Assembly: GCA_002255955.1 (NCBI GenBank)
Contig: NKIM01000035.1
Coordinates: 1-50,185 of the forward strand
Length of the DNA: 50,185 bases
Source: Burkholderiales bacterium PBB2
GTDB lineage: Bacteria > Pseudomonadota > Gammaproteobacteria > Burkholderiales > Burkholderiaceae_C
Reading direction: 5' to 3'
Numbering within the stretch: position 1 is the stretch's first letter; every line of letters starts with the position of its first letter. A model generated the notes under the pieces. That model was not told the origin of the DNA. It made no database searches and was given only the letters and a program-made list of their open reading frames with translations. Positions 30,303-46,440 of this stretch are shown here, piece after piece. The translations under genes were made by a program, and so were the position numbers.

Positions 30303-31478
30303 TCAGAGCTCGCCCCAGCGCTTGATCAAGGGCTGCCAGAGCTGGTGGCCGTTCAGGCTGTTGCTCAAGAAGACCAGGCCGCTGCCCTGTGAAGGGTTGA
30401 ACTGGCAGTAGGCGCGGAAGCCGCTGCTGTTGGTGCCGGTGTGATAGATCACGCGGCTGCCATCGGCCATGGGGTTGAGGATCCAGCCCAGGCTCCAGTA
30501 GGCCTTGGCTGGCTGGCCCGGCAGATCGAGGGCGCGCCCGGGCCGCTCCAGCGGTTGGCGGTCGCCGGCCACAGTCTGTGCGGCCAGCATTTCGCGCCGC
30601 CCCTCTTCATGGAGCAAAGCGCTGGCCGTGGGTGCCGGGCGCAAGAGCGCCGCCAGAAAGCGACCGTAATCCTGCGCCGTGGTGTGCAAGGTGTAGGCCG
30701 CATTGGCCCGTTCGTAGCGGCTCCAGGGCAGGGGCTGGCCGTCCTCGCCATGGCCGCGCGCACGCCGGGCTTCGAGCGCCGGCGTCAGCACAAAGCTGCT
30801 GCTGCTCATGCCGAGCGGCGCGAAAAGCTCGCGTTCGGCCGTGGTCTGCAGGGGCTCGCCCAGCAGATGTTCGAGTGCGCGCTGCAAGTAGAAATAGCCT
30901 TCGCCCGAATACTCAAAGCCCTCGCCGGGCGTGAACTTCAGGGGCAGGGGGCCGGTGTTCTCGTCGCCGCTGCGCCAGTTGGGCAGGCCGGAGCGGTGGC
31001 ACAAGAGCATGCGCGCCGTGATGCGCGCCTGCGCGGCTTGGGGCGGCTGAAAGCGCTCGGGGTAGAAATCAAGAATCGGCTGATCGAGGCCCAGTCGCCC
31101 GCGCTGCACCTGCTGCATCAGCAGGTAGGCAAACACGGGCTTGCTCATGGAAGCGCACTCGAACACCGTGCTGGCCGTGACCGGCTCCGAGTTCTCCTCG
31201 CCGAATTGGCGCCGACCCAGATGCCAGGCTTCGCTGAGCTCGCCATGCTGGATCAGCTGCAAGGCCAGGCCCGGCACACCGAGCTTGGCCATCAAGCCTG
31301 GCCATTGCTGCTCGATCTCCTGGCGCCGCTCCAGCAGACGCCGCGCCAGGGACAGGGCCTGCCAGGCGGCTGAGTTGCCGGAACCCGGCTCAACCGGCGT
31401 CCCGGCAGGCTGGGCGCGCACCCCAGTGGCGGACAGCCCCGCCGCGGCCAAGGCTTGCAATCCGAGACGGCGCTTCAT
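30303..31478 (-). CDS. Beta-lactamase-fold serine hydrolase (S12 family)
   Basis: 391 residues. Signal peptide (about 1-22). Class C/DD-peptidase motifs: Ser110-x-x-Lys113 (ASMSKPVFAYL), Tyr190 (EYSGEGYFYL), and YHTGTNSSGF as the KTG-like box. Probably an exported esterase or peptidase, not an antibiotic resistance enzyme. ATG 31478 begins the signal peptide. It lies 38 bases after the TonB receptor stop on the same strand, so it may be read with it; a role in cyanophycin use is possible only by position. Confidence 0.85.
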   Translation of the reverse strand: MKRRLGLQALAAAGLSATGVRAQPAGTPVEPGSGNSAAWQALSLARRLLERRQEIEQQWPGLMAKLGVPGLALQLIQHGELSEAWHLGRRQFGEENSEPVTASTVFECASMSKPVFAYLLMQQVQRGRLGLDQPILDFYPERFQPPQAAQARITARMLLCHRSGLPNWRSGDENTGPLPLKFTPGEGFEYSGEGYFYLQRALEHLLGEPLQTTAERELFAPLGMSSSSFVLTPALEARRARGHGEDGQPLPWSRYERANAAYTLHTTAQDYGRFLAALLRPAPTASALLHEEGRREMLAAQTVAGDRQPLERPGRALDLPGQPAKAYWSLGWILNPMADGSRVIYHTGTNSSGFRAYCQFNPSQGSGLVFLSNSLNGHQLWQPLIKRWGEL

Positions 31479-31516
31479 GCCCACCCTCTCGCCCGCCCGC
31501 CCGCCCACGCGCCGCT

Positions 31517-34270
31517 TCAGCGGAACTGGTACTGCACGCTCAGGTAGCCGAAGCGGCCGCGCGGGTCGGTGTAGCTGGGGTCGTAGCCCGAGAGGAAGAA
31601 CCAGGCCTGCTGCGAGAACGGCGGCGCGGTGTTGAACAGGTTCTTGACGCCGGCCCGCACGGTCAGCGCCGGGGTCACTGCCCAGGCACCGGTCAGGTCC
31701 CACAGGGAGTAGGAGCCCACCTTGCGGTCGACTTTGCCGACGATGGTCTGGTCTGTGTAACCCGAGAGGTAGCTGTTGCTCAGGGTGGCGCTCCAGGGGC
31801 CTTGCTCCCAGTCGGCGCTGACGGTGTGGCGCCAGCGTTGCACCACGCCGTCGTTCACGAAGTGGGCGAGGTTGCTGTAGTAGGGGTCGTCGTTGGCGGT
31901 TTGCTGCTTGGAGCTCAGGGTCACCGTGCCGTTCAGGCGCAGGCCCAGGGTGCCCAGCGGGCTCTTGAAGCCGGAGAGATTGAGCGCCAGGTCCAGGCCG
32001 GATATCTTCTGGCGGCCGCGGTTGCCCTTGACCAGCTCGATGTAGTCGATCTCGTTGTCCTCGTCTCGATGCACGAGACTGCCGTACTTGGCGAGGTTGG
32101 CCAGGATGGAGTCCACGCCCAGCGTGCCGATCAGGTTGCGCTTCTGGATGTTCCAGTAGTCCAGGCTCAGGGTCACGCCGGCCTGCGGTTCCAGCACGCC
32201 GCCGAAGGAGAACTGCTTCGAGCGCTCGGGCTTGAGCGAGGCATTGCTGTAGGTCAGGGTCTGCCAGGTGTCCGAGCAGTCGGTGACGGTGTTGCTCGGG
32301 TCAGCGGCCAGGCAGACCGGATCGACCAGGGTGGCGGCCGTTCCCTGCGTGACCGGGCGGTAGAGATCGGTCAGGCTGGGCGCGCGGAAGCCCGAGCCGA
32401 CCGAGGCACGCAGCAGCAGCTGCTTGCTGGGCGTGTAGCGCAGGCCCAGCTTGGGGCTGGTGGCGCTGCCGGTGACCTGGTAGCGCTCATGCCGGATGGC
32501 CGCCTGCAGCTCCAGCTCCTTGCTCAACGGCGCATTGATTTCGGCAAACACGGCCGCCACCTTGCGCGAACGGCCGAAATCGGCATCCGGGCCTTGCGAG
32601 GTCTCGCCGAGGATCAGATCCTGGGCCAGAGCCTCCGATTGGTGGTAGTTCTGCTTCTCGCGGCGGAACTCGCCGCCCAGGGCCAGGGCCAGATCGCCGC
32701 CTGGCAGGGCCATCAGGTTGCGCGAGGCTTTGACGTCCAGGCTGTCCACGGTGCCGACGGCGTTGCGCACCTCGCCGCGGATCTGCGCCTTGTCGTACAG
32801 GGCCAGGCCGGCCGCGCTGGAGGGGCCGAAGGGGTTGAGCGTGCCATCGGCAAAGCCCTTGAGGATCATGCCCTCGTTGAGGTAACCGTTGTGGTCGCGG
32901 TCCGAGACTTTGCTGCGGCCGTGGTTGTAGGCCACTTCGTAGTCCCAGCCGGCCAGGGAACCATTCAGGCCCAGCACCACGCGCTCGCCGGTGGAAACCA
33001 GCTCGCTGGTGCGCAGGCCGGCTTCGCTGAGCCGGGTGCGCACGGTGATGATGCGGTCTTCGTCGTCCGCGTCCAGGGTGGCCAGGGTGGTCTTGCTCAG
33101 GCTGGCGATCTTGCCCACATCGATGTCGGCATCGACCCGGTTCGGTGTGCCGGAATACAGCGTTTTGGCGCGGGTCAAGGAGGCTTCGGCAAACAGCTGA
33201 TGGCCACCGCCCAGGTCGAACACGCCGCGGCCGAACAGGCTGGACTTGTTGGACTTGGGGTAGAGCTCGATGTCACGCATGTAGTCATACGTGCAGCCGT
33301 CGACGCCGCCGATGCCGTCCGGCAGATAGAGCGAAGACGGCGCGTTACAGCCGGTGGCCGCCGCGGGGTTGATGGTCTTGCTGTCGATGACCGTCTTGCC
33401 ATTGGTCGAGAACTTGTCGTCGATCAGGTAGTCGCGCTGGCTGTTGCTCAAGCGCATATTGCCGGGGAAGGCGGCGCTGGAGAGCAGGTCGGGCAGCCGC
33501 TCCGGGATCTTGAGGTCGTTGATGAACTTGCGCTGGCTGGCGTTCATGGCGCCGGTCTTTTGCAGATCGATCACGCCGAAAAGATTGAAGCCATCGCGGC
33601 CATAGTCGCCCACGCCGCCGGCGATGGAGGCGGTGCGCTTGCTGGCACCGCCCTCGCTGGTGTTGCCGGCGCTGGCATTGAGCTCGATGCCGGTGTAGTC
33701 CTTGCGGGTGATGAAGTTGATCACGCCGCCGATGGCATCGCTGCCGTACAGGGCCGAGGCGCCGTCCAGCAGCACTTCCACGCGCTGGATGGCGGCGGCC
33801 GGGATGTTGTTCAGGTCCACGCCGGTGTCATCACCGGGCGAAGCGAAGTTGGCCATGCGTCGGCCGTTCAGCAGCACCAGGGTGCTGGAGACGCCGATGC
33901 CGCGCAGATTCGCGCCGTTCATGCCGGTCTGGTCGCGGAAGCCACCGTAGGAGATGCTGCCTCCGTCGGTGCGGTTGTTGGTGCTGGCGCTGAGGCGGGC
34001 GACGATCTCAGCCGCGGTGGTCAGGCCTTGCTTGACGATGTCGGCCCGGGTGATCACCTGCACCGGCAGCGCCGTTTCCGATTCCAGGCGCTTGATGGCC
34101 GAGCCGGTCACTTCGACGCGGTTCAAGGTGCTGGGCGTCTCCTGCGCCAGGGCCGGCTGGCTGGCGATGGCGGCCGTGGCCATCAGGGCGGCCAGGGCGG
34201 TGGCGCGCAAAACGGGGCTGGGGGCGGGGGCGTGGGTGGGAATTGGGGCGCAAGTGCGGGGCTGTGTCAT
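31517..34270 (-). CDS. TonB-dependent outer membrane receptor (copy 1, cyanophycin locus)
   Basis: 917 residues. Signal peptide to about residue 43 (ASQPALA). Plug domain with RVEVTGSAIKRLE, LVLLNGRRMANFASPG, IQRVEVLLDGASALYGSDA and GGVINFITRKDY; 22-strand barrel ending YLSVQYQFR. Belongs to the large receptors lacking an N-terminal signalling domain, which import oligomers with TonB energy. ATG 34270 has GGGAG upstream. Divergent from the first cyanophycinase across 312 bases, and closely similar in the plug to the receptor at 36179-38929. Proposed cargo: cyanophycin fragments (beta-Asp-Arg). Confidence 0.92.
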   Translation of the reverse strand: MTQPRTCAPIPTHAPAPSPVLRATALAALMATAAIASQPALAQETPSTLNRVEVTGSAIKRLESETALPVQVITRADIVKQGLTTAAEIVARLSASTNNRTDGGSISYGGFRDQTGMNGANLRGIGVSSTLVLLNGRRMANFASPGDDTGVDLNNIPAAAIQRVEVLLDGASALYGSDAIGGVINFITRKDYTGIELNASAGNTSEGGASKRTASIAGGVGDYGRDGFNLFGVIDLQKTGAMNASQRKFINDLKIPERLPDLLSSAAFPGNMRLSNSQRDYLIDDKFSTNGKTVIDSKTINPAAATGCNAPSSLYLPDGIGGVDGCTYDYMRDIELYPKSNKSSLFGRGVFDLGGGHQLFAEASLTRAKTLYSGTPNRVDADIDVGKIASLSKTTLATLDADDEDRIITVRTRLSEAGLRTSELVSTGERVVLGLNGSLAGWDYEVAYNHGRSKVSDRDHNGYLNEGMILKGFADGTLNPFGPSSAAGLALYDKAQIRGEVRNAVGTVDSLDVKASRNLMALPGGDLALALGGEFRREKQNYHQSEALAQDLILGETSQGPDADFGRSRKVAAVFAEINAPLSKELELQAAIRHERYQVTGSATSPKLGLRYTPSKQLLLRASVGSGFRAPSLTDLYRPVTQGTAATLVDPVCLAADPSNTVTDCSDTWQTLTYSNASLKPERSKQFSFGGVLEPQAGVTLSLDYWNIQKRNLIGTLGVDSILANLAKYGSLVHRDEDNEIDYIELVKGNRGRQKISGLDLALNLSGFKSPLGTLGLRLNGTVTLSSKQQTANDDPYYSNLAHFVNDGVVQRWRHTVSADWEQGPWSATLSNSYLSGYTDQTIVGKVDRKVGSYSLWDLTGAWAVTPALTVRAGVKNLFNTAPPFSQQAWFFLSGYDPSYTDPRGRFGYLSVQYQFR

Positions 34271-34353
34271 CTGTACTTCTCCCGGGGGTGTGAGGGGTCG
34301 GGGCACGCGCCGAGGCGGGGGCGACCGGGCATCCAATGAGGTGTCCGCGCCAG

Positions 34354-34434
34354 TCTAGGAAGCATGAGCCTCTCGGGCCATAGGGGATTCACGCTGCAGT
34401 CGCATCAGCGCAACTCAGGGTGCAGATCTTGCGC
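34354..34434. promoter_or_regulatory. Shared control region of receptor 1 and cyanophycinase 1
   Basis: Within the 312-base divergent gap: TCTAG (34354-34358) and CCATAGGGG (34378-34386), 24 bases apart start to start, a pair repeated with identical spacing at 39030/39054 before receptor 2. Also an inverted repeat GCGCAA / TTGCGC (34408-34413, 34429-34434). On the minus strand CTAGAC could serve as a -10 and CCCCTATGG as an activator site. Confidence 0.4.
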
Positions 34435-34582
34435 GCGGCGTTCGCATAGCGTTCCAAATGCCCGGTGAGCGGCCTCAGACTGAGTGGTGCCATGGCCGCC
34501 CCTGCGGTCATGCCATGATTCGCTCCGCCACCGCTGGAGTTGTGTTTTTTGCGGTGGCTCATTCACAGAAGTTTCCCAGGCC

Positions 34583-36097
34583 ATGAACACCAAGCACGTA
34601 TCTGTTTCGTTGATCGCCACCCTGGTGGCGGGCCTGCTGGCCGCGGCCAGCTTTGGCGCATCTGCCCAGGGCGGCACGGTGCACACCTTGAAGCCGGGCA
34701 CCTTCGGCCCCGCCGGCACGGTGCTGGGCGCCACACCGCCGCCGCCCACCACGCCGGTCAAGGGCGTGCATGCGCCCTCGCCAGTGCCGGCCAAACCGGC
34801 CAGTTCGACGGCGGGCAGCAGCAACCCGGCCAGCAACAGCGCCGGCCCCGGCCCGTTGGGCGCGGGTGAGGGCGCCATCAAGGGCTATGCCGTGCCCATC
34901 GGGGGGGCATTGAAGGCCGACAACGAAGACGTCTGGGGCCGCATCGTGCAACTGGCCGGCGGCAAGGGCGCGCGTTTTGTCGTCTTCGGCACCGCGGCCG
35001 AGGACCCCGAGGCCAGCGCCAAGACGGCGGTGGACATGCTGCAAAAGCGCGGAGCCGTGGCCGAGGCCCTGCCGGTGGCCCCCAAGTTCAGCTGGGTGGA
35101 CCTGAGCAAGGTGGTGCGCGACCCGTCCTTGATCGCCAAGGTCAAGAACGCCCGCGGTGTGTTTTTTACCGGCGGCTCGCAAGAGCGCATCGTTGACGTG
35201 CTGATGCCGGGTGGCAACAGCACGCCCATGCTGGAGGCGATCTGGGACGTCTACCGCCGCGGCGGCGTGGTGGCCGGCACCTCGGCCGGTGCCGCCATCA
35301 TGAGCACGGTGATGTTCCGTGACGCCCCCAGCGTCATCAACATCATGAAAGGCAAGTGGGCCGAGGGCAAACAGATCGACCGCGGACTGGGCTTTGTCGG
35401 CCCCGACCTGTTCGTGGACCAACACTTCCTCAAGCGTGGCCGCTTCGGCCGCATGATCCCGCTGATGATGGCCAAGGGCTACAAGCTGGGCTTGGGCGTG
35501 GAAGAGAACTCGGCCGCCGTGGTGCATGGCGATGAGGTCGAGGTGATCGGTGCCAAGGGCGCCTTGCTGGTGGACCTGACCGATGTGAAGACCGACCCGA
35601 CCCTGGGCGCCTTCAATGTGACCAGCGCCCGCCTGAGCTTCCTGGACCAGGGCGACCGCTACAACCTCAAGACCCGGCAGACCACGCCGGCGCCCATCAA
35701 GCTGCGCGGCGCCAAGCATGACCACACGGCGCCGGACTTCAAGCCCTATTTCACCGAAGACCGTTTCGATCTGGACATGCTGGGCGATTCCACCATCGCC
35801 AATGCCATGACCTATCTGATCGACAGCAATCGCACCGAGGTGCGCGGCCTGTCCTTCGACGTGCTGCCCAGGCCCGGTGACCCGGTGGCCGAGCTCGGCT
35901 TCCTGTTCCGCCTGTACAAGGGCAAGGGCAGTTATGGCTGGAGCACCGAGGAGTGGGGCGGCGAGGAGTTCACCGTGGTCAATCTCTACCTCGATGTGAC
36001 CCCGGTGCGCATGCCGCAACCGCTGTACAGCGCCTGGCCCGGCCCGGACCGCGCCACCGGCCCGGCCCCCGAGCGGGGCGACGGGCCGAGCAAGTAA
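34583..36097 (+). CDS. Exported cyanophycinase (S51 family), copy 1
   Basis: 504 residues. Cleaves cyanophycin (poly-Asp with Arg side groups) to beta-Asp-Arg. Signal peptide ends near residue 28 (FGASAQ). A Pro/Ala/Ser linker (about 45-95) precedes the S51 domain: oxyanion loop PIGGALK, substrate-binding FFTGGSQER (Gln200, Arg202), nucleophile Ser234 (AGTSAGAA), His281 (VDQHFLKRGR) and acid Glu307/308 (LGVEENSA), the triad of CphB. The C-terminal half is longer than intracellular CphB. ATG 34583 begins the signal peptide. Divergent from a TonB receptor, so the polymer is likely attacked outside the cytoplasm. Confidence 0.9.
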   Translation: MNTKHVSVSLIATLVAGLLAAASFGASAQGGTVHTLKPGTFGPAGTVLGATPPPPTTPVKGVHAPSPVPAKPASSTAGSSNPASNSAGPGPLGAGEGAIKGYAVPIGGALKADNEDVWGRIVQLAGGKGARFVVFGTAAEDPEASAKTAVDMLQKRGAVAEALPVAPKFSWVDLSKVVRDPSLIAKVKNARGVFFTGGSQERIVDVLMPGGNSTPMLEAIWDVYRRGGVVAGTSAGAAIMSTVMFRDAPSVINIMKGKWAEGKQIDRGLGFVGPDLFVDQHFLKRGRFGRMIPLMMAKGYKLGLGVEENSAAVVHGDEVEVIGAKGALLVDLTDVKTDPTLGAFNVTSARLSFLDQGDRYNLKTRQTTPAPIKLRGAKHDHTAPDFKPYFTEDRFDLDMLGDSTIANAMTYLIDSNRTEVRGLSFDVLPRPGDPVAELGFLFRLYKGKGSYGWSTEEWGGEEFTVVNLYLDVTPVRMPQPLYSAWPGPDRATGPAPERGDGPSK

Positions 36098-36119: not shown

Positions 36120-36158
36120 AAAAAAGGGCCGGGTGCGTGATGCACCCGGCCCTTCGTT
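36120..36158. terminator. Bidirectional Rho-independent terminator
   Basis: 11-bp stem GGGCCGGGTGC / GCACCCGGCCC (36126-36136, 36142-36152) with A-run before and TTCGTT after, between convergent cyanophycinase 1 and receptor 2. Confidence 0.8.
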
Positions 36159-36178: not shown

Positions 36179-38929
36179 TCAGCGGAAGCTGTAGTTCAGG
36201 CTCAGGTAGAAGTTGCGGCCGCGCGGGTCGGTGTAGGTCGGGTCATAGGTTGCGAGGAAGTAGTAGCCCTGGTTGGAGAAAGGCGGCTGCGTGTCCAGCA
36301 GGTTCTGGATGCCGGCGCGCAGCTTGAGCTGCTTGTTGATGCGCCAGGAACCCGACAGATCCCACAGCGAATAGGCCTCGACGCTGCGGGCCGGCAGCAG
36401 CTGGCTGGTGTTGGGGTTGAAGGCGGTGTTGTGGTCGCGGTAGCCCGAGTAATAGGTGTTGCCCAGGGTCAGGCCGTAAGGGCCCATATCCCAGTCCACC
36501 GACAGGCGGTGGCGCCATTTCTGGATCACCTGGTCGCTCAGGAACTGGCCGGCGTTGTTCATGAAGGGCTCGCCGGCGCCGGGCTGGCGCTCGTACTTGA
36601 GCACATAGGTGCCGCTCAGCGAGGCGGTGAAGCGGCCCCAGCCCTCGGTCGCTTGGCGCAGGGTCAACTCCAGATCCAGGCCCGAGGTGCGCAGCTCGCC
36701 CTGGTTGTCCTTCTTGAGCAGGATGGTGTCGATGAACTCGCCGAACTCGTCGCGTTTGACGAAGTCCTTCTCGTACTTGGGCAGGTTGCCGAGGATCACC
36801 TGTTCCGAGAGGTCACTGATGACATCGGTCTTGCGGATCTGCCAGTAGTCCAGGCTGGCGGTGGCGTCCTTGCTGGCTTCGAAGACCACGCCGAAGGAGG
36901 CCTGCTTGGACTTCTCGGGCTTGAGATTCGGGTTGCTGCGGCGTTCGACGCGCCATTGGTCGGTGCAGTCAGCAACGGCAAAGCCCTGGGCCACGCAGCC
37001 CGGGTCGGTCAGGAAGGCCGAGCTGCTGCCAAACGAGGTCGGGCGGGTCAGCTCGGTGATGGTGGGCGCCCGGAAGCCGGTGCCGGCAGAGCCGCGCAGC
37101 ACCAGCTGCTTGTTCGGTTGCCAGCGCACGCCGAGCTTGGGGTTCAGGGTGTCGCCCACGCCGCTGTACTTGTCATAGCGCAGCGCGCCCTGCAGCTCGA
37201 GCTCGCGGCTCAGGGGGGCGTTCAGTTCGGCGAACACGGCGCCGACCTTGCGGCTGTTGCTGCTGGCCACCGGCGCGTCACCGCGCGAGCTGCGGTCGCC
37301 CTGGATGTTGTTGGTCAGCAGCAGGGCCGAGGGCGTGAACTCGCTCACCTCGCGGCGCAGCTCGGCGCCCACAGCCAGGCCCAGATCACCGCCTTCCAGC
37401 CGGCCCAGGCTGCCGCTGAGTTTGACGTCCAGGGTGGTGGTCGTGCCCTTGGAGCGGCGCGATTCATCCTGCACGCGGATGCTGTTCAGCAAATCCTTGC
37501 CGGCCTGTGGCGAAGGCCCGAAGGGGTTGATCTTGCCGGTGCGCACACCGGCGACGAACTCGTTGTAAAGGAAGTAGCCATCCTCGATGGCATCGGTCGA
37601 GCGGTTGACGGCGCGGTTCAGGGCGATGTCATAGTCCCAGCCGCCGAACTGGGGCAGGCTGCCGCTGGCGCCCACCACCAGGCGCTCGGCATCGCTGGTC
37701 ACCTCGTTGGTCCGGTTGCCGGCTTCGGTCACGCGCTGGCGGATGTCCACCGTGCCGCCGAAGGGCAGGGGCTTGCTCAGGAAGGGGTTGATGGCGCTGG
37801 TCGGCACCGCGGTGATTTCGATCGGGTTGGGGCTGGCCACGTACTGGGTCGTGGTCTTGCTCTTCAGCACTTCGGCGAAGAGTTGGTGCTGCTCGTTCAG
37901 CTGGAAGACGCCGCGGCCCAGAAAGGCCAGCTTCTCGGATTCGGGGTAGAGCTCGGTGTCCTGCATGTAGTCGAAGCTGCAGGCCTCGGACAGGTTGTCG
38001 GGCGCGTAGACCGTGGCCGGCGGGTTGCAGGCCGGGGCCGAGAGGTTGATGGTGCGCTGGGTCAGCGGCTTGCCGTTGAATGTGAAGCCGGCGGCATTGA
38101 GCGCATCAAGCTGCACCTTGCGTGCGGCCGCCCGGCTGGCCAGGCGGATGTTGCCGGGGAAGGTGCGGCTGCTCATGTAGAAGGGCAGGGTGCTGGCCAG
38201 GGGGCGCTCCTTCAGGAAGTCACGCTCGCTGCTGCGCAGGGCGCCGAGCTTTTGCGCGTCGATCACGCCGAAGACATTGAAGCGGTCCTTGGCCAGGTCA
38301 CCAAAGCCACCGCCCAGCGAGGCGGCCGTCTTCTCGGCGCCGCCCTCTTGGGTGCGCGAGGCGTAGACATTCACATCGGCGCCGCGGTAATCCTTGCGGG
38401 TGATGAAGTTGATGACGCCGCCGATGGCGTCGGTGCCGTAGATGGCCGAGGCGCCGTCCTTGAGGATTTCCACGCGCTCGATGGCGCCGGCCGGGATGTT
38501 GTTCAGGTCCACGCCCGAGTTGTCGCCAGGCGAGGCGAAATTGGCCATGCGCCGTCCGTTCAGCAGCACCAGGGTGCTGGAGACGCCGATGCCGCGCAGG
38601 TTCGCGCCGTTGAAGCCGCGCTGGCCGCCGGTGCTGTCGGTGATGGAGGCGCCATCCGTCAGGCCGGCGGCATTGCCGCTGATGGATTTCATGATCTCGG
38701 CCGCGGTGGTGGCGCCGGTCTTGTCGATGTCGCTGCGCTTGAGGGTCTGCACCGGCAAGGCGGTCTCGCCCTCCAGGCGCTTGATGCTGGTGCCGGTGAC
38801 TTCCACACGTTCCAGTTTCGCTTCCTGGGCTTGGGCGCTGCTCAAGAGCTGACTGCCGAGCAGCAGCATGGCGGCCTGGGCCAGGCGCTGGGGTTGAAAG
38901 AGTCGATGCGGCTTGCGGGCTTGCGTCAT
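36179..38929 (-). CDS. TonB-dependent outer membrane receptor (copy 2, cyanophycin locus)
   Basis: 916 residues, a paralogue of receptor 1 of nearly equal length. Signal peptide to about residue 34 (QLLSSAQA). Plug motifs RVEVTGTSIKRLEGE, LVLLNGRRMANFASPG, IERVEILKDGASAIYGTDA, GGVINFITRKDY; barrel end YLSLNYSFR. ATG 38929 has CAAGG upstream; the longer frame to 39256 overlaps the divergent gene. Divergent from cyanophycinase 2 across 309 bases, so module 2 mirrors module 1. Cargo as for receptor 1 is inferred from position. Confidence 0.92.
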   Translation of the reverse strand: MTQARKPHRLFQPQRLAQAAMLLLGSQLLSSAQAQEAKLERVEVTGTSIKRLEGETALPVQTLKRSDIDKTGATTAAEIMKSISGNAAGLTDGASITDSTGGQRGFNGANLRGIGVSSTLVLLNGRRMANFASPGDNSGVDLNNIPAGAIERVEILKDGASAIYGTDAIGGVINFITRKDYRGADVNVYASRTQEGGAEKTAASLGGGFGDLAKDRFNVFGVIDAQKLGALRSSERDFLKERPLASTLPFYMSSRTFPGNIRLASRAAARKVQLDALNAAGFTFNGKPLTQRTINLSAPACNPPATVYAPDNLSEACSFDYMQDTELYPESEKLAFLGRGVFQLNEQHQLFAEVLKSKTTTQYVASPNPIEITAVPTSAINPFLSKPLPFGGTVDIRQRVTEAGNRTNEVTSDAERLVVGASGSLPQFGGWDYDIALNRAVNRSTDAIEDGYFLYNEFVAGVRTGKINPFGPSPQAGKDLLNSIRVQDESRRSKGTTTTLDVKLSGSLGRLEGGDLGLAVGAELRREVSEFTPSALLLTNNIQGDRSSRGDAPVASSNSRKVGAVFAELNAPLSRELELQGALRYDKYSGVGDTLNPKLGVRWQPNKQLVLRGSAGTGFRAPTITELTRPTSFGSSSAFLTDPGCVAQGFAVADCTDQWRVERRSNPNLKPEKSKQASFGVVFEASKDATASLDYWQIRKTDVISDLSEQVILGNLPKYEKDFVKRDEFGEFIDTILLKKDNQGELRTSGLDLELTLRQATEGWGRFTASLSGTYVLKYERQPGAGEPFMNNAGQFLSDQVIQKWRHRLSVDWDMGPYGLTLGNTYYSGYRDHNTAFNPNTSQLLPARSVEAYSLWDLSGSWRINKQLKLRAGIQNLLDTQPPFSNQGYYFLATYDPTYTDPRGRNFYLSLNYSFR

Positions 38930-39029
38930 GGTGGAACCTTGGAGGAAGGAGAAGTGAACAGGTGAAGGGGTGAACAGGTGAGGGAGATGAACAACCTTGG
39001 GCGCCGGGGTGGCTGGGGTTCGAACGGAC

Positions 39030-39106
39030 TCTAGAAGTGGCCCTCGTGACTTGCCTATGGGGTTTTGGCGCCTCGGTCGCTTGCGTGTAAATGCATGTCG
39101 CAAGCG
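39030..39106. promoter_or_regulatory. Shared control region of receptor 2 and cyanophycinase 2
   Basis: TCTAG (39030-39034) and CCTATGGGG (39054-39062) repeat the spaced pair found before receptor 1. An inverted repeat CGCTTGCG / CGCAAGCG (39078-39085, 39099-39106) and further TTGCATG/TTGCG units follow toward 39170. Confidence 0.4.
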
Positions 39107-39238
39107 CGCAAACCTCGATGAACAGGGGTGAAACGCGCTTGCATGGATGCGACACGCACTTGCGCTTTGCGTCCTTTGCAGGCGCTGCAGCGGGCCAACC
39201 CGCTGGTTTTGCGGCGCGCGCGCTGACAGACTGGCGCC

Positions 39239-40606
39239 ATGCAAACCCCAAGCCACTCCATCGCATCCGGTGCGCGCGCCGCAGGCCGCCGTCGCTTTCT
39301 GCTGGCCTCACTGCTGGCCTCGCTGCTCGCCGGCACGGGCCTCTTCGCCACGCCCAGCCATGCGCAAACTTCGGTGGATGCTGCGCCGCGCGGCACGGCC
39401 ATCGTCATCGGCGGCGCGCTGAAGTACGACAACGACGCGGTCTGGAAGCGCATCGTTGACGAAGCCGGCGGCCCCGGCGCGCGCTTTGCCGTGTTCGCCA
39501 CCGCTGCGGCCAACCCCGAGCGCAGCGCCGGCCAGATCATCGAAGCCTTGCAGCGCCAAGGTGCCCGCGCCGAGCACATCCCCGTGGCGCCGCGCCTGGC
39601 CGGCAGCGATGTGGCCGCTGCCGTGCGAGACCCGGCCTTGCTGGCCAAGGTGAGTGCGGCGCAAGGCGTGTTCTTCTCGGGCGGCGCGCAAGAGCTGATC
39701 GTCGACAGCCTGCAGCCCGGCGGCCAGCCCACGCCCATGCTCGATGCCATCTGGGCGCTCTACCGCCGCGGCGGTGTGGTGGCCGGTACCAGCGCCGGCG
39801 CGGCCATCATGAGCAGCACCATGTTCCGCGACGCGCAGGACTCGCTCAAGGTGCTCAAAGGCCAGCTGCGCCGCGGCCAGGAGGTGGACCGCGGCCTGGG
39901 CTTCGTCGGCCCCCATCTCTTCATTGACCAGCACTTCCTCAAGCGTGGCCGCATCGGCCGCCTTCTGCCCCTGATGCAGGCCGAGGGCTATCGCCTGGGC
40001 CTGGGCGTGGAAGAGAACAGCGCCGCTGTGATCAAGGGCGAGGCGCTGGAGGTCATCGGCGCGCGCGGCGTGCTGCTGGTGGACTTGAGCGAGGCCAGCC
40101 GCGATGCGCGCCTGCCCGCCTTCAACATCCGCGGTGTGCGTCTGAGCTTTCTCGACCGCGGTGACCGCCATCACCTTGGCAGCGGCGAGACCACGCCCTC
40201 GGCCGCCAAGCGCGCCGGCCACAAGATCGACCCGCGCGCGCCGGACTTCAAGCCCTTTTTCACCCAGCAGCCTTTCCTGATGGACATGCTGGGCGACAAC
40301 ACGATTGCCAACGCCATGGCCCAGCTGATCGACAGCCCCTTCCAGGAACTGCTGGGTCTGGCCTTCGCCGGCCCGCGCGCGGTGCCTGTATCGGCATCGG
40401 CATCGGCATCGACAGCGAGCGCGACGGGCAGTGAGCCGGACAGCGAGCTGGGTTTTGAGTTCCGCCTCTACAAAGGCCCCGACAGCCTGGCCTGGTTCAC
40501 CGGCGTCCTGGGCGGCGAGGACTACACCGTGCTGAATCTGCGCCTCGATGTGCTGCCGGTGCGGGTGCAGCAGCCTTTCTACAAACCCATCAGCCCCCAG
40601 CCTTGA
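39239..40606 (+). CDS. Exported cyanophycinase (S51 family), copy 2
   Basis: 455 residues, paralogue of copy 1 without its Pro-rich linker. Signal peptide contains RRRFLLASLLASLLAG and ends near residue 42 (PSHAQ); the Arg run could allow Tat export. S51 features: VIGGALK, FFSGGAQEL (Gln151; the Arg of copy 1 is Leu here), nucleophile Ser185 (AGTSAGAA), His232 (IDQHFLKRGR), Glu258/259 (LGVEENSA). A Ser/Ala repeat (VSASASASTASA, near residue 385), encoded by tandem TCGGCA, interrupts the C-terminal part. Could favour different chain ends or dipeptide forms from copy 1. Confidence 0.9.
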   Translation: MQTPSHSIASGARAAGRRRFLLASLLASLLAGTGLFATPSHAQTSVDAAPRGTAIVIGGALKYDNDAVWKRIVDEAGGPGARFAVFATAAANPERSAGQIIEALQRQGARAEHIPVAPRLAGSDVAAAVRDPALLAKVSAAQGVFFSGGAQELIVDSLQPGGQPTPMLDAIWALYRRGGVVAGTSAGAAIMSSTMFRDAQDSLKVLKGQLRRGQEVDRGLGFVGPHLFIDQHFLKRGRIGRLLPLMQAEGYRLGLGVEENSAAVIKGEALEVIGARGVLLVDLSEASRDARLPAFNIRGVRLSFLDRGDRHHLGSGETTPSAAKRAGHKIDPRAPDFKPFFTQQPFLMDMLGDNTIANAMAQLIDSPFQELLGLAFAGPRAVPVSASASASTASATGSEPDSELGFEFRLYKGPDSLAWFTGVLGGEDYTVLNLRLDVLPVRVQQPFYKPISPQP

Positions 40607-40610
40607 GCTG

Positions 40611-40753
40611 AGAGGGAGAGAACTTTTTACTGCGCGGCCGCCATACGTCGTTGGCCGAATGCTCGGAATCCTCACGTACACAAAGTACGTTCCGGTTCCT
40701 GCGCTCCGCCCGCCTAGTCTGACGGCCGCTCGCTACAAAAGTTCTCACCCTCT
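40611..40753. repeat. 143-bp long imperfect palindrome (MITE-like or structured RNA)
   Basis: The left arm from 40611 (AGAGGGAGAGAACTTTTTAC) mirrors the right arm ending 40753 (reverse strand AGAGGGTGAGAACTTTTGTA); pairing continues through GGCCG blocks to an inner hairpin CACGTAC / GTACGT near 40673-40690. The whole element folds back on itself. It starts 5 bases after the cyanophycinase 2 stop. From memory, similar sequence occurs between genes in unrelated Proteobacteria. Rest of the 281-base gap (40754-40887): nothing seen. Confidence 0.7.
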
Positions 40754-40887
40754 GCGCCCGCACCATCGGCGCATGTACTTCCGGTCCCGTCTTTCGAACT
40801 CGGCCCTGGGCTCTCGCCCAGCCGAGCGGGGCAGGGCTATGCCCGCCCAACTACCCCAAGCACTTTCATTTCTTCATCCACACCCTC

Positions 40888-42009
40888 ATGCGCCGCCACC
40901 TTCATGCCCTACCGCCGGCCCATGCCGGCAGTGCCCGCCAGCTGCACAGCCTGCATTTCGGTGCCGGCCAGAGCGGCCGCAAGGTCTACATCCAGGCCTC
41001 CCTCCATGCCGACGAGGTGCCGCCCATGTTGGTGGCCCAGCACCTGAAAGATCGATTGCAGGAGCTGGAGGCGGCCGGCCATCTGCCCGGCGAGATCGTG
41101 CTGCTGCCCCTGGCCAACCCCATCGGCCTGGCCCAGGAGCTGCAGGGCACGTCCTTCGGCCGCTTCGACCTCAGCACCGGCGTCAACTTCAACCGCGGCT
41201 ATCAACATCTGACCCCGGCCCTGCTGCCGCGCCTGCAGGGGCAGCTGGGCACCGATGCCGCGGCCAATGTGCGCACGGTGCGCGCGGCAGCCCAGTCCCT
41301 GCTGGCCGAGCGGCCCGCGGCCACCGAGACCGAAGCCCTCAAGCGCCTGCTGCAAAGCCTGGCCCTGGACGCCGATGTGGTGCTGGACCTGCACTGCGAC
41401 AACCAGGCCGTGCTCCATGTCTACACCGGCACGCCCCTGGCCTCGGCCCTGGCGCCGCTGGCTGCGCGCCTTGGAGCCCAGGCCTATCTGATCTCGCGCG
41501 AGTCGGGTGACGACCCTTTCGATGAGTCCCTGGCCCGCCATTGGTGGGAGCTGGCCGAGCATTTCGGCCCGGCCACGCCGGTGCCTCTGGCCTGCCTGGC
41601 CGCCACGGTGGAGCTGCGTGGCGAGACCGAGGTGTCGCACGAGCTGGCCGCGGCCGATGCCGCCGCCCTGATCGAGTTCCTGCGCGACACCGGTGATGTG
41701 GTGGACCGCCCGCCTGCCGCGCTCCAGGGCCTGGCCTGTCCCGCCACGGCGCTGGAGGCGGTGGAGCCCATCGTCGCGCCCCATGCCGGCGTGCTGGTCT
41801 TCCTCAAGGCGCCCGGTGATCGCGTCGCCGCTGGCGAGGCCGTGGCCGAGCTGGTCGATCCTTTGAGCGAGCAGCGCAGCCTGCTCTGCGCACGCGCCGC
41901 TGGCCTGATGTTCGCCCGTGTGTCTCGGCGTTATGCCAGCTCCGGCATGCGGGTCTGCAAGGTCGCAGGCGCCATTCCTTTTCGCAGCGGCAAGCTGCTT
42001 TCCATGTGA
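40888..42009 (+). CDS. cphZ: CphZ/AotO-like zinc dipeptide hydrolase (beta-Asp-Arg)
   Basis: 373 residues of the succinylglutamate desuccinylase/aspartoacylase family. Zinc ligands His40 and Glu43 (QASLHADEVP) and His169 (LDLHCD); substrate-binding NFNR (100-103); catalytic Glu242 (TVELRGE). A C-terminal barrel-like domain follows (IVAPHAGVLVFLKAPGDRVA). Length and layout match CphZ and P. aeruginosa AotO, enzymes known to split beta-Asp-Arg into Asp and Arg; AstE-type desuccinylases are shorter at the C-terminus. No signal peptide, so it acts in the cytoplasm. Two cyanophycinases upstream and arginine genes downstream support this reading over AstE. Its last codons overlap a possible GTG start of the permease. 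Confidence 0.82.
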   Translation: MRRHLHALPPAHAGSARQLHSLHFGAGQSGRKVYIQASLHADEVPPMLVAQHLKDRLQELEAAGHLPGEIVLLPLANPIGLAQELQGTSFGRFDLSTGVNFNRGYQHLTPALLPRLQGQLGTDAAANVRTVRAAAQSLLAERPAATETEALKRLLQSLALDADVVLDLHCDNQAVLHVYTGTPLASALAPLAARLGAQAYLISRESGDDPFDESLARHWWELAEHFGPATPVPLACLAATVELRGETEVSHELAAADAAALIEFLRDTGDVVDRPPAALQGLACPATALEAVEPIVAPHAGVLVFLKAPGDRVAAGEAVAELVDPLSEQRSLLCARAAGLMFARVSRRYASSGMRVCKVAGAIPFRSGKLLSM

Positions 42010-42017
42010 GCCCGGCC

Positions 42018-43448
42018 ATGTCCACGCCTGTCACGCCTCTGAGTCCCACCCCAGCCGCCAAGCCCCTCAAGTTCCCCAACACCTTTGTCCTGCTGTTCGC
42101 CCTGCTGGCCCTGATCGCCCTGGCCACCTGGGTGCTGCCCGGCGGCCAGTACCAGACGGAGCTGGTTGATGGAAAAAAGGTGATCGTGGCCGACTCCTTC
42201 CGCCACATCCCCAATCAGCCGCAAGGCCTGGTGGCCTTGATGACGGCGCCAATCAAGGGTTTCGTCGAGGCGGCCCTGATCATCGGCTTTGTGCTCATCG
42301 TCGGCGGCGCCTTTTCAGTGCTGCAGCGCAGCGAGGCCATCGACGCGATGATCAAGTCCGTGGCCCGCGCCCATCGGCACTCGGCCCTGGTGCGCGCCGG
42401 CCTGATCCCGCTCTTCGTCGGCCTGTTCTCGCTCGGCGGTGCCACCTTCGGCATGGCCGAGGAGGCGATTCCCTTTGTGCTGATCTTCATCCCCCTGGCC
42501 CTGGCGCTGAAGTACGACAGCATCGTCGGCGTGGCGATTCCTTTCGTCGGCTCGCAGATCGGTTTTGCCACGGCCTTTCTCAACCCCTTCAACGTCGGCG
42601 TGGCCCAGAACATTGCGGGTGTGCCCATGTTCTCGGGCCTGGGTTACCGCCTGGTTTGCTGGCTGATCTTCACCACGGTGACCATCACCTTTTTGATGTG
42701 GTACGCGGCCCGTGTGCAGCGCGATCCGCGCCTGAGCCCCTGCTTTGAGCAAGACCAGGAGCGCCGCCGCCATCTGGACCTCAGCAGCTTCGAGCAGTTC
42801 GAGGGCCTGCAGCCGCGCCACAAGCTGGTGCTGGGCCTGTTTGTGCTGACGCTTCTGTCCATGATCGTCGGCGTGGTGCGTTTCGGCTGGTACATCGAGG
42901 AGATCGCGGCCCTGTTCCTGGTGATGGCCCTGGCCGTGGGCCTGGTGGCGCGGCTCTCGGCCGAGGACTTCGTCGTCGCCTTCATGCAGGGCGCCAAGGA
43001 CCTGGTCAGCACCGCCTTGGTGATCGCCCTGGCCAAGGCCACCGTGGTGCTGATGCGCGACGGCCACATCATCGACACCGTGCTGCACAGCCTGGTGCCC
43101 CTGGTGGAATCGAGCAGCCCCGTCTTTTCGGCGCAGAAGATGTTTCTGATCCAGTCGGTGATCAACTTCTTCATCCACTCCGGCACCGGCCAGGCCGCCC
43201 TGACCATGCCGGTGATGGCGCCGTTGGCCGATCTGGTGGGGGTGAGTCGGCAGACCGCCATCCTGGCATTTCAGTTCGGCGAGCTGACCACGCCGGTCAT
43301 CCCGACCTCGGGCATCACGGTCGGCGTGCTGGCCCTGGCGGGCATCCCCTGGAGCCGCTGGGCCCGCTGGATGCTGCCCCTGCAACTGGCCTACCTGCTG
43401 CTGGCCTTGCTGCTGCTGGCGGTGCCGAGCTGGATTCAGTGGCACTGA
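42018..43448 (+). CDS. YfcC-family permease (amino acid/dipeptide, DcuC-like fold)
   Basis: 476 residues, about 12 membrane segments; C4-dicarboxylate/ArcD-like YfcC family. Signature stretches: GGAFSVLQRSEAID, GATFGMAEEAIPFV, SQIGFATAFLNPFNVGVAQ and NFFIHSGTGQAALTMPVM. Relatives move arginine, ornithine or small peptides. ATG 42018 is used; a GTG at 42006 overlaps the cphZ stop. Sits where P. aeruginosa has the AotJQMP ABC transporter next to AotO and ArgR, so uptake of beta-Asp-Arg or arginine is likely. Confidence 0.85.
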   Translation: MSTPVTPLSPTPAAKPLKFPNTFVLLFALLALIALATWVLPGGQYQTELVDGKKVIVADSFRHIPNQPQGLVALMTAPIKGFVEAALIIGFVLIVGGAFSVLQRSEAIDAMIKSVARAHRHSALVRAGLIPLFVGLFSLGGATFGMAEEAIPFVLIFIPLALALKYDSIVGVAIPFVGSQIGFATAFLNPFNVGVAQNIAGVPMFSGLGYRLVCWLIFTTVTITFLMWYAARVQRDPRLSPCFEQDQERRRHLDLSSFEQFEGLQPRHKLVLGLFVLTLLSMIVGVVRFGWYIEEIAALFLVMALAVGLVARLSAEDFVVAFMQGAKDLVSTALVIALAKATVVLMRDGHIIDTVLHSLVPLVESSSPVFSAQKMFLIQSVINFFIHSGTGQAALTMPVMAPLADLVGVSRQTAILAFQFGELTTPVIPTSGITVGVLALAGIPWSRWARWMLPLQLAYLLLALLLLAVPSWIQWH

Positions 43449-43514
43449 GCCCGTGCCGCCCGCCGCTTGCCGTACAGTGACCGCGTGAACGGCGACACCT
43501 CGATCTCCCCCCGC

Positions 43515-44606
43515 ATGCCGGCGTCTGAGCCGCAGGCGGCCGCGTTCGCCCCCGAGACGGCCACGCACTGCCGCTGCGCGCTTGTGCTGCTACCCGGCGC
43601 CGCGCTCTTGTCGGTGGCCGGCGTGCTGGAAGCCTTGCAGCGTGCCAATGCGCTGCAAACGGCCTGCCGCTACGACTGGCGCTGCTTCACGCTGGAGGGC
43701 CAAGCGCCCGCCTGGCCCGGCCTGGCGCTGCTGGCGCCCGAGACGGTGCCGCTGCGAGGCGAAGAGGGGGGCGAAGAGGGGGGCAAAGAAGGCAGTGAAG
43801 AAGGTGGCGGCGCAGGGCTGGACGCCGAGCTCCTGCTGGTCTTCAGCGGCGAGGCTGCGCTGGATGATGAACGCCTTTTGTTCTGGCTGCGCCGGCAGGC
43901 GCAGCTCGGAGCCGAGCGCATGGCCATCGCCGGCATCGATGGTGGCAGCGCCTGGCTGGCCGCTGCCGGCCTGCTGGAAGGCGAGCGCGCCACCGTGGCC
44001 AGCGAATGGATCGAGGCCTTGCAGGAAGAGCAGCCGGCCGTGGTCTGGAGCGACAAGGTCTGGGAGATGAATGCTTCGGGCCTGCGCATGAGCTGTGCCG
44101 GCGGCAGCGCCAGCGTCGATCTGATGACCGCCTGGCTGGGCCGCCGCCACGGCGAGCGTCTGGCGCAAGACCTGACCCTGGCCCTGGGCCTGGAGCGCGC
44201 GCGCGGGCGCGATGAGCGCCAGCGCCGCCCCGTGGCCGAGCAGCGCGGCAACAGCCCCAAGCTGGCCGAGGCCCTGAGCCTGATGGAGGCCAATCTGGCC
44301 GAGCCCCTGCCGACTGAGGAGGTGGCGCGCCTGGTGGGCGTGTCGCGCCGCCAGCTCGAGCGCCTGTTCAAACAGCATCTCGACGCGCTGCCCTCGCGCT
44401 ACTACCTGGAGCTGCGCCTGAACCGCGCGCGCCGCCTGTTGCAGCAGAGCAGCCAGTCGATTCTGCAGATCGGCCTGAGCTGCGGCTTTTCCTCGGGCCC
44501 GCATTTTTCAAACGCCTACAAAGCCCATTTCGACAAGACCCCGCGCGACGAGCGCAGCCAACGCGCGGCGGCCTGGCGCCGCCCGGCAGGAGAGAGCCCC
44601 CCATGA
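43515..44606 (+). CDS. GlxA/ArgR-like AraC-family regulator
   Basis: 363 residues from ATG 43515; GTG 43485 and TTG 43467 are alternatives. N-terminal DJ-1/PfpI-like domain (VLLPGAALLSVAGVLEALQRAN, IAGIDGGSAWLAAAGLLEG) and C-terminal AraC helix-turn-helix pair (LVGVSRRQLERLFKQHL, ILQIGLSCGFSSGPHFSNAY). This is the layout of P. aeruginosa ArgR, which activates aot and aru/ast genes with arginine. An acidic Gly/Glu repeat (EEGGEEGGKEGSEEGG, from tandem DNA near 43760-43800) is inserted in the first domain. Its TGA overlaps the ATG of the next gene. Likely controls this operon. Confidence 0.88.
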   Translation: MPASEPQAAAFAPETATHCRCALVLLPGAALLSVAGVLEALQRANALQTACRYDWRCFTLEGQAPAWPGLALLAPETVPLRGEEGGEEGGKEGSEEGGGAGLDAELLLVFSGEAALDDERLLFWLRRQAQLGAERMAIAGIDGGSAWLAAAGLLEGERATVASEWIEALQEEQPAVVWSDKVWEMNASGLRMSCAGGSASVDLMTAWLGRRHGERLAQDLTLALGLERARGRDERQRRPVAEQRGNSPKLAEALSLMEANLAEPLPTEEVARLVGVSRRQLERLFKQHLDALPSRYYLELRLNRARRLLQQSSQSILQIGLSCGFSSGPHFSNAYKAHFDKTPRDERSQRAAAWRRPAGESPP

Positions 44607-45679
44607 ACCTCATTGAGCCGCACGATCCGCGCGCGCTTGTCTTGCGCCCGGTGGCGCTGCCCGACCTGGCGGCGCTGGAGCGCATCGCCGCCGCCAGCGA
44701 GCATGGCATCAGCTCCTTGCCGCATGACCGCGAGCAGCTGCGCCAGCGCATCGCCCACTCGATCGAGTCCTTTGCCAGCGCCGACGATGCCAGTGGCGAA
44801 GAGCGTTATCTCTTTGTGCTGGAGGACCTGGCCCGGGGCGAGGTGGTGGGCTGCAGCGGCATCGCCGCCAGCGCCGCTTTCCATGACCGCTTCTACAGCT
44901 ACCGCAATGAGTTCGTGGTCCACGCCAGCGCCGCCTTGGGCGAGAGCCACCGACTGCACACCCTGCATCTGTGCCACGACCTGACCGGCTACACCTTGCT
45001 CACCTCCTTCTACATCGACCCGGCCTATGCCGAGGGCCCGGCGCCGCAGCTGCTCTCGCGCGCCCGCCTGCTCTTCATCCTGCGCCATCTGGGGCGCTTC
45101 AACGACCGCATCGCGGCCGAGAGCCCGGGCCTGGCCGACGAGGCCGGGCAAAGCCCCTTCTGGGACGCGGTGGGCCGGCGATTCTTCGACATGGACTACC
45201 CGCAGGCCGAAGCCGTTACCGGCGGGCGCAGCAAGTCCTTCATTGCCGACCTGATGCCGCAGTCGCCCATCTACGTGCCCCTGCTGCCCGAGGCCGCGCA
45301 GTTCGCCATCGGCCAGCTGCACCCGGTGGGCGAGCTGCCGTTTTCCATTCTGCAGGACGAGGGTTTCGATGCCGACAGCTATATCGACATCTTCGACGGC
45401 GGCCCCACGGTCGAGGCCAGCCTGCACCTGCTGCGCAGCGTGCGCCACGCCCGCGAGCTGAGCGTGCGCGCCGACGCCATGGCCCTGGGCCAGCCGGTCT
45501 GGCACCTGGCGGTTCACAACGCCCGGCCGGGCTTTCGCGCCGTCTTGGCCGAGCTGCCACCGGCCGCCCAGGCCCTGGCGCCGGGGCATGAGGCCGTGCA
45601 ACGCCTCGGCCTGAGCGAGGGCCAAAGCTTGTGGGTGACGCCGCTGCAGCCCGAAGCGCAGGAAAGGAGCCGGCCATGA
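44603..45679 (+). CDS. astA: Arginine N-succinyltransferase, first subunit
   Basis: 358 residues. First step of the arginine succinyltransferase pathway: succinyl-CoA plus arginine to N2-succinylarginine. AstA/AruF-family features: ASEHGISSLPHDREQL, SYRNEFVVHASAALGESHR, HDLTGYTLLTSFYIDP, SPFWDAVGRRFFDMDYPQA and ILQDEGFDADSYIDIFDGG. ATG 44603 overlaps the regulator stop (ATGA) and has AGGAG upstream. Followed by a coupled second subunit. Later pathway genes (astB, astC, astD, astE) are not in the window. Confidence 0.92.
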   Translation: MNLIEPHDPRALVLRPVALPDLAALERIAAASEHGISSLPHDREQLRQRIAHSIESFASADDASGEERYLFVLEDLARGEVVGCSGIAASAAFHDRFYSYRNEFVVHASAALGESHRLHTLHLCHDLTGYTLLTSFYIDPAYAEGPAPQLLSRARLLFILRHLGRFNDRIAAESPGLADEAGQSPFWDAVGRRFFDMDYPQAEAVTGGRSKSFIADLMPQSPIYVPLLPEAAQFAIGQLHPVGELPFSILQDEGFDADSYIDIFDGGPTVEASLHLLRSVRHARELSVRADAMALGQPVWHLAVHNARPGFRAVLAELPPAAQALAPGHEAVQRLGLSEGQSLWVTPLQPEAQERSRP

Positions 45680-46440
45680 GCGCCGCAGCAGCAACTGACT
45701 TCGGCCGCCTGCGCCCCTGGCGCGCCGAAGACGCCGCCCACATCCGCGCGGCCGGCTGGCGCAACCAGACCGGTGCCGCCCTGCAGCTGGACGCCCCCGC
45801 CGAGCAATGGCTGCTGCTGGCGGACCCGGAGGACGAGCGGCCGCTGGCCTGCCTGCGTCTGGTGGCGCGCCTGGGCCAGGCGCCGCTGCCGCGCTACAGC
45901 TACCACCTGGGCCAGATCGTGCACGCCGCCGCCGAGTTGGGCCTGTTCCGCGCCCAGCGGACCTTGCTGCTGGGCAATGACCACACGGGCGAGAGCGAGC
46001 TGGCCGATCTGGCCTGCGCGCCGGAGCTGGATGCGGCCCAGCAGCAGACCGCCCTGCAGCGCCTGATGCGCGCGGCCCTGGAATCCATGGCCGCCCACCC
46101 TGAGCGTTATGGTCGCCAGCTCCTGATCGAACTGGCCGGCCCCCGCGATGCGTCCGGCGCCTCGCCCTTCTGGCAAGGCCTGGGCGCGCATTTCTTCAGC
46201 GGCGACCCGGCCGCCGCCGAAGCGCGCCTCGGCGAGGCCTGGCGCAGCCACCTCGCCGCCTTGCTGCCGCGCCAGACCTTGTACCTGTCTTTCCTCAGCC
46301 CCGAGGCGCAAGCCGCCGTGGGGCAGGTGGGTGATGCAGGCCGTGCTGCCGCAGCGGCAGCGGCCTCACTCGGCTTTGCCGACTCCAGCCATGTGCGGAT
46401 TGATGATGGTGGGCCGGTGTGGGGCTTGCGGCTGCGCTGA
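45676..46440 (+). CDS. Arginine N-succinyltransferase, second subunit (short)
   Basis: 254 residues. Same fold as the preceding subunit: LPRYSYHLGQIVHAAAELG, LFRAQRTLLLGNDHTGESE, SPFWQGLGAHFFSGDPA, LGFADSSHVRIDDGGP. P. aeruginosa has a two-subunit enzyme (AruF/AruG) with both chains near 340 residues; this one is about 90 shorter, mainly at the N-terminal GNAT half and the C-terminus. ATG 45676 overlaps the previous stop and has AAAGGAG. Last gene of the operon; native G+C ends soon after it. Confidence 0.85.
   Translation: MSAAAATDFGRLRPWRAEDAAHIRAAGWRNQTGAALQLDAPAEQWLLLADPEDERPLACLRLVARLGQAPLPRYSYHLGQIVHAAAELGLFRAQRTLLLGNDHTGESELADLACAPELDAAQQQTALQRLMRAALESMAAHPERYGRQLLIELAGPRDASGASPFWQGLGAHFFSGDPAAAEARLGEAWRSHLAALLPRQTLYLSFLSPEAQAAVGQVGDAGRAAAAAAASLGFADSSHVRIDDGGPVWGLRLR

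Follow-up and report, generated by a model that had tools for sequence, protein, structure and literature searches.

What is the purpose of a locus in which two TonB-dependent receptors and two exported S51 proteins stand beside a set of arginine-related genes? This question is raised by a 50,185-nucleotide stretch of DNA of Burkholderiales bacterium PBB2 (contig NKIM01000035.1; the whole stretch is referred to below as the window), which is part of a 5.48 Mb genome. The closest named relatives of the S51 proteins of the window come from Paucibacter/Roseateles (family Sphaerotilaceae). In an earlier, sequence-only reading the genes were taken for a cyanophycin-scavenging set, and each protein named there is indeed present as an intact open reading frame (ORF) at the place assigned to it. 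Judged by homology and gene context, we consider this to be probably an arginine-controlled cyanophycin-utilisation locus. Between 31.5 and 46.4 kb the gene order is TBDT1 (-), S51a (+), TBDT2 (-) and S51b (+), followed by genes for a CphZ homologue, a YfcC-type permease, an AraC-type regulator, an AstA-like protein and a short AstA-like protein (Table 1). From CphZ to the second AstA, neighbouring genes share 4 bp or are separated by 18 bp, as would be expected of a single transcript.

The S51 proteins score 132.1 (S51a) and 132.7 bits (S51b) with the cyanophycinase equivalog model TIGR02069 (cut-off 126.6). Their catalytic and pocket residues (S185, H232, E259, Q151, D230, Q231, R236, R238 and R241) were invariant in 15/15 and 101/101 matches, the loci behind the latter count having been retrieved in part through the DQHFLKR motif, in which four of these residues lie. 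The pocket set (Gln, Asp, Gln, Arg, Arg, Arg) retains all six residues described for cyanophycin. The Ser/His/Glu triads reported earlier are thus present; the signal peptides, of both S51 proteins as well as of both receptors, were judged by eye from the translations and not by a program. The view of S51a and S51b as predicted exported enzymes of the cyanophycinase type is supported by these features, and the genome has only two S51 matches, both of the exported type. The aligned CphB structures end near residue about 321 of S51b; residues 322-455 (window positions 40202-40603) form a C-terminal stretch past the CphB fold; it contains two long strands and is kept among exported S51 proteins.

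The CphZ homologue (P0005) aligns in full length (residues 8-365) with 8ein and 8eip (E 8e-77; 262 bits to 8ein), which we take to be CphZ/AotO structures and whose entry files are labelled succinylglutamate desuccinylase. The motifs HADE, DLHCD and TVEL are present in the window protein in this alignment; presumably, these hold the metal ligands HxxE...H and the Glu replaced by Ala in 8eip. No signal peptide was noticed on this protein. The CphZ/AotO-like hydrolase of the sequence-only reading therefore has a full-length match of known structure, and it probably splits beta-Asp-Arg.

Both receptors carry Plug and beta-barrel domains (Pfam). They had been described as paired, and both are indeed there, but their arrangement is that of two divergent receptor/S51 modules in tandem, parted by the stem at 36123-36155 (11 such sites in the region versus 7.9 in shuffles). 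TBDT1 and TBDT2 are 49% identical, S51a and S51b 61%. The neighbourhood was compared in 80 named loci, the best 80 of 367 found with S51 motifs, some genomes giving two loci; the 75/80 loci with 4 kb or more of upstream sequence and the 65 with 8 kb or more of downstream sequence were used. In 64 of these 75 loci the S51 gene has a divergent receptor no more than 1.5 kb away. The tandem two-module arrangement recurs in L041, L043, L044 and L082 and, partially, in the short L118, while the remaining named loci have one module within about 10 kb. Across the relatives the partner phase is kept, TBDT1 with S51a and TBDT2 with S51b; the TBDT1/S51a module stands in most named loci without the other genes. 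In the rearranged loci L090, L106, L190 and L201 the receptor is still inside the cluster.

The association was also approached from the receptor side, in 299 genomes of the family. Three candidates were scored per genome and the 99 listed matches of at least 400 bits were used; for S51, 90 rows of at least 67 bits were used and weaker, mostly partial rows were dropped. Among the matches listed, to which the following receptor counts refer, TBDT2 relatives fall into 57 receptors at 667 bits or more (clade receptors) and a lower group at 536 bits or less. An exported-type S51 gene is found no more than 1.5 kb from 43/57 clade receptors (41 of those being divergent) and within 12 kb of 3 more, versus 0/42 in the lower group (400-536 bits). 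The 41 genomes with a clade receptor are all within the 48 that have exported-type S51, and none of the 22 low-scoring S51 genes adjoins a listed receptor. Absence of such receptors beside cyanophycinases in other genomes had been named as grounds for refuting the proposal; neither the named loci nor the clade receptors refuted it. Eleven clade receptors have no S51 within 12 kb: two adjoin CphZ (L190, L198), one stands where its contig ends (L200) and the other eight are lone. The lone ones (L191-L197 and L199) are a TBDT1 paralogue, mostly 53-57% identical, found in eight genomes that also have exported S51; their named neighbours differ (neighbours were Pfam-named in 4/8 loci, and in all 8 compared with the window proteins).

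A link to arginine comes from the gap between TBDT2 and S51b. The string TGTCGCN8AA, which we take to be the half-site of Pseudomonas ArgR, has two matches in the 50-kb window, both in this gap; their number is ordinary for 50 kb, their location is not. In TBDT2/S51b gaps of the relatives the half-site was found in 38/39, against 0.57 expected from shuffles, and in 15/16 of the gaps that are less than 60% alike; exact half-sites are present in 4/32 TBDT1/S51a gaps (the sets of 39 and 32 include the window's own gaps and one near copy, L118). Positions that were not part of the query are also conserved, with G at the fourth-last place in 51/57 sites and the two A of a second GNAA, after a 5-bp gap, in 55 and 57 of 57. 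With these flanks, the sites correspond to the tandem ARG box, for which the consensus TGTCGCN6GNAA with 5-bp spacing has been described (PMC10963909). The box also follows the regulator gene: it is present in 37/43 S51 copies with a downstream AraC gene and in 0/43 copies without one, a count that omits copies with no regulator in view and less than 7.5 kb downstream (among them the boxed L047 and L054) and in which the side without a box is inflated by tandem S51 pairs, as the 700 bp upstream of the second copy lie partly inside the first. Elsewhere in the genome, a facing ARG-box pair occurs at one other place. The regulator had been called ArgR-like; it is of the AraC type (HTH_18), and because of its operator it is best read as a putative ArgR.

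The inner-membrane porter varies at a constant site. Among 42 S51b loci, 25 have YfcC and 7 others a HisJQM-type ABC transporter, and the two were never found together. The order in L061 is HisJ-HisQ-HisM-CphZ-HisP-AraC-AstA, its binding protein being over the lysine/arginine/ornithine cut-off and the other transporter parts below theirs. The Pseudomonas gene order is, we assume, aotJQMOP-argR plus aruFG, with AotO equal to CphZ, so that CphZ in L061 presumably holds the position of AotO. The exchange of one porter for another at the same site supports an uptake role of YfcC.

The following route is proposed on these grounds. S51a and S51b, exported by their signal peptides, would cut cyanophycin to beta-Asp-Arg outside the cytoplasm, and TBDT1 and TBDT2, as their conserved pairing suggests, would move pieces of the polymer or dipeptides over the outer membrane. 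YfcC (in several relatives, the basic amino-acid ABC transporter of the HisJQMP/Aot type) would serve as inner-membrane carrier for the dipeptide or for arginine, and the cytoplasmic CphZ, by homology to its solved family, would cleave beta-Asp-Arg. The AraC-type regulator, acting like a Pseudomonas-type ArgR, would respond to arginine at TBDT2/S51b via the conserved tandem ARG boxes. The released arginine would be consumed by arginase rather than by the arginine succinyltransferase (AST) pathway.

The last step departs from the sequence-only reading, in which the AST pathway broke down the arginine. AstB had no match in the window genome or in any of the 299 family genomes (the controls, E. 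coli and Caulobacter, were positive), and no AstD was over the cut-off in the window genome (best 259 bits, cut-off 579). AST catabolism as the arginine route was rejected on this absence, AstA itself being over its cut-off (365 bits); arginase and agmatinase are present in the genome. Lacking AstB in 299 genomes, the AstA pair is an orphan. AstA-alpha occurs in 31/299 family genomes (34 copies), all of them with exported-type S51, and 31/34 copies lie within 6 kb of such a gene. Of the other three, one is beside TBDT2 and CphZ (G011), one is 83 bases from a contig end (G288) and one is in a genome whose S51 is near the end of its own contig (G182). Across the family, the AstA pair is associated with the present locus and not with an AstB. 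A tentative explanation, which we regard as possible and no better than that, is that a Pseudomonas-type arginine operon (CphZ/AotO, ArgR, AruFG) was captured by a receptor/cyanophycinase module in the Roseateles family and some relatives, the outcome being a 'polyamide utilisation locus' that senses arginine. In these AstB-less cells the AstA pair might then have a new job with imported beta-Asp-Arg or arginine, e.g. feeding or protecting a pool that is restored to cyanophycin by the cell's own CphA.

The source of the polymer has to be considered together with the cell's own cyanophycin. The genome encodes a cyanophycin synthetase (CphA) over the cut-off with a second CphA-like protein beside it, and CphA was found in 185/299 genomes of the family at E 1e-150 (179 over the cut-off). 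The food therefore need not be cyanobacterial, and the earlier claim that it comes from lysed cyanobacteria is unproven; the source may be kin or other bacteria as well as cyanobacteria. Recycling of cyanophycin made by the cell itself or left by dead kin is a rather unlikely role of the locus. The polymer is indeed made by the genus, CphA occurs in 43/48 genomes with exported-type S51 versus 142/251 others, and the two S51 proteins of the window genome, the only ones found there, are both of the exported type; however, signal peptides and a receptor partner would be needless for a cytoplasmic granule, and five genomes have exported S51 without CphA. Distances to cphA (39/68 exported-type and 13 low-scoring S51 genes were entered) point the same way. 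Among the listed cphA matches, exported S51 on the same contig is at least 0.94 Mb away in 8/8 cases, whereas 4/10 low-scoring S51 on a cphA contig lie 0.9-13.4 kb from it; being far from cphA, the exported S51 suggest a locus that looks outward. An improbable alternative is general scavenging of arginine or basic peptides, with S51 acting on other isoaspartyl or arginine-rich peptides. The ARG boxes and the HisJQMP-type transporter of relatives would indicate arginine and not cyanophycin as such, and the best solved sequence relative of the S51 proteins is pseudo-CphB, but all six cyanophycin pocket residues are kept and a CphZ-type hydrolase adjoins. Least probable are receptors for iron, haem or cobalamin standing beside S51 by chance or hitch-hiking: the best named models of both receptors are siderophore, haem and B12 receptors, and eight clade receptors stand alone, yet these matches are far below cut-off, the pairing and its phase are conserved, and the receptor stays clustered in the four rearranged loci. 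The SusC-type model TIGR04056 was not reached either (43.7 bits for TBDT2, cut-off 368).

Several observations weigh against the utilisation of cyanophycin under arginine control. The TIGR02069 scores exceed the cut-off by just 5-6 bits. The eight lone clade receptors have no locus-type neighbours, 25/68 exported-type S51 genes lack a clade receptor next to them, and no CphZ, porter, regulator or AstA was found downstream in 15/23 S51a loci and 6/42 S51b loci. With one mismatch allowed, S51a gaps hold the half-site in 13/32 (2.3 in shuffles), which blurs the separation of the two modules. Among named models the regulator comes closest to GbdR (choline metabolism; 226 bits, cut-off 480), with no ArgR among the best 25 models listed. 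The relatives also share descent, so that locus counts are not independent, and the genome has a cyanophycin synthetase of its own. Of the likeness to a polysaccharide utilisation locus, drawn earlier for a polyamide, the dedicated receptors, exported enzymes, CphZ, porter and ArgR-type regulator have stood, at the level of prediction, while AST and a proven cyanobacterial source have not.

Cyanophycin-scavenging clusters have been discussed, with citation of a 'cyanophycin utilization locus' (Ben Hania et al., Flammeovirga work), and a sister study of CphZ-type hydrolases has been pointed to (PMC10206079). The shared features are a cyanophycinase, an isoaspartyl dipeptidase and a transporter clustered together; the window differs, as far as the Ben Hania work is reflected in the citing paper, in having CphZ as dipeptidase, two receptor/S51 modules and an ARG-box-type operator in one of them. 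In Citromicrobium sp. JLT1363 a TonB receptor lies near a cyanophycinase gene and cyanophycin was proposed as its substrate (PMC3400609). That is a single case, whereas the window has a conserved divergent module with a downstream pathway, an operator and counts from multiple genomes. The sequence-only reading knew of no named system with paired receptors for cyanophycin; a single receptor beside a cyanophycinase and a 'cyanophycin utilization locus' were already in print, and the concept is not new. The extracellular CphE of Pseudomonas (PMC3235067) is likewise an exported S51 protein, comparable in length (1260-bp gene); it shares the catalytic residues and five of the six pocket residues. 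Where CphE has Thr223, however, the window proteins retain the CphB-type Gln (Q231), and they are receptor-paired. ArgR controls aotJQMOP-argR in Pseudomonas (PMC12341379). The cluster is probably a better-equipped version of an already described locus type.

AotO/CphZ, ArgR-type and AruFG homologues stand together in the Pseudomonas aotJQMOP-argR/aruFG genes as they do here; in the window, S51 and receptor are in front, YfcC replaces the ABC transporter, and the genome has no AstB. Our literature search (cyanophycin/cyanophycinase with TonB; Paucibacter with cyanophycin), with most subscription journals outside its scope, found no description of the present locus. As far as these searches go, what is new is the conserved divergent module and its matched partners, the ARG box, the exchange of transporters and an AstA pair in the absence of AstB. 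Only 3% of cphA1-containing betaproteobacterial genomes were reported to have a recognisable cyanophycinase (PMC10206079), and on this point it bears that many of the relatives have CphA with exported S51 located elsewhere, beside receptors. If the proposed function is true, there would be a TonB-dependent route for a non-ribosomal polyamide, cyanophycin turnover among bacteria could be tested with one regulator, two receptors and two enzymes, and an AstA pair working without the AST pathway would be exposed.

Rhodocyclales account for two of the named loci, one in Niveibacterium (L059) and one in a Uliginosibacterium bin (L066), so the cluster spans more than one order. In a phylum sample of 398 genomes S51b was matched at E 1e-30 in the window genome and G585 only, and the cluster is therefore rare outside; the S51 gene of G585 (L210; another family of the order) has none of the remaining locus genes nearby, which adds to the points against raised above. 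A plasmid home was rejected, as a search of 72,556 plasmid records (E 1e-20) gave no S51b relative.

Table 1. Positions of the genes and sequence elements of the locus within the window.
Feature	Position	Strand	Basis and remarks
TBDT1, TonB-dependent receptor	31517..34270	-	Pfam PF07715 (Plug)/PF00593 (barrel); ATG chosen inside ORF 31517-34336
S51a, predicted exported cyanophycinase-type S51, divergent from TBDT1	34583..36097	+	TIGR02069; ORF 34484-36097, likely start ATG 34583
Two-way terminator-like stem between modules	36123..36155	both strands	14-pair stem
TBDT2, TonB-dependent receptor	36179..38929	-	Pfam Plug and barrel; start ATG inside ORF 36179-39256
Divergent promoter region with two tandem ARG boxes	38930..39238	.	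sole two TGTCGCN8AA matches of the 50-kb window
ARG box 1, GNAA-N5-TGTCGC-N6-GNAA	39087..39111	+	consensus of PMC10963909
ARG box 2	39139..39163	- (opposite to ARG box 1)	same consensus, PMC10963909
S51b, predicted exported cyanophycinase-type S51	39239..40606	+	TIGR02069; apparently Tat-like signal (RRRFL), judged by eye
Long imperfect palindrome between S51b and cphZ	40611..40753	.	fold z-score -6.2
CphZ/AotO-type beta-Asp-Arg hydrolase (predicted)	40888..42009	+	262 bits to PDB 8ein; AstE_AspA_cat
DcuC/YfcC-type permease	42006..43448	+	PF03606 340 bits; NF008611 373 bits, below cut-off 500
AraC-type regulator, ArgR-like by presumed operator	43467..44606	+	HTH_18; GbdR model 226 bits, below cut-off 480
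AstA/AruF-like succinyltransferase, alpha	44603..45679	+	TIGR03243 365 bits, cut-off 284
AstA/AruG-like second subunit, short	45676..46440	+	TIGR03243 133 bits, below cut-off 284; ORF 45631-46440, likely ATG 45676

ORFs on the strand opposite to the receptors had no family match and were rejected, the receptors being on the - strand. A promoter scan of 34100-46900 gave no site of the sigma-70 type. A TAGA[CG]T element, mostly inside CTAGA, was noted on the receptor strand in 52/71 receptor/S51 gaps, including upstream of TBDT1 and TBDT2, and in 1/6 lone receptor paralogues examined; CCTAGA is present in 32/71 receptor/S51 gaps against 1.4 in shuffles. The element looks like a shared promoter. 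The palindrome at 40611-40753 folds far better than shuffles; its core motif is at the same place in L082 and occurs once near the lone receptor of L196, and it may be a small mobile repeat.

The locus had been drawn from 30303, where an AmpH-like gene of the beta-lactamase fold lies. This gene was rejected as a member and is a mere neighbour, a homologue standing beside TBDT1 in 4/80 named loci (L043, L044, L082 and L102). Further out, a subtilase at 24242-26188 reaches 162 of the 279 bits that the mycosin model requires. An SDR gene (28194-29159), 75-93% identical, adjoins the TBDT1/S51a module in many relatives and is also found at some S51b loci, and its being kept beside the module suggests an old chromosomal site.

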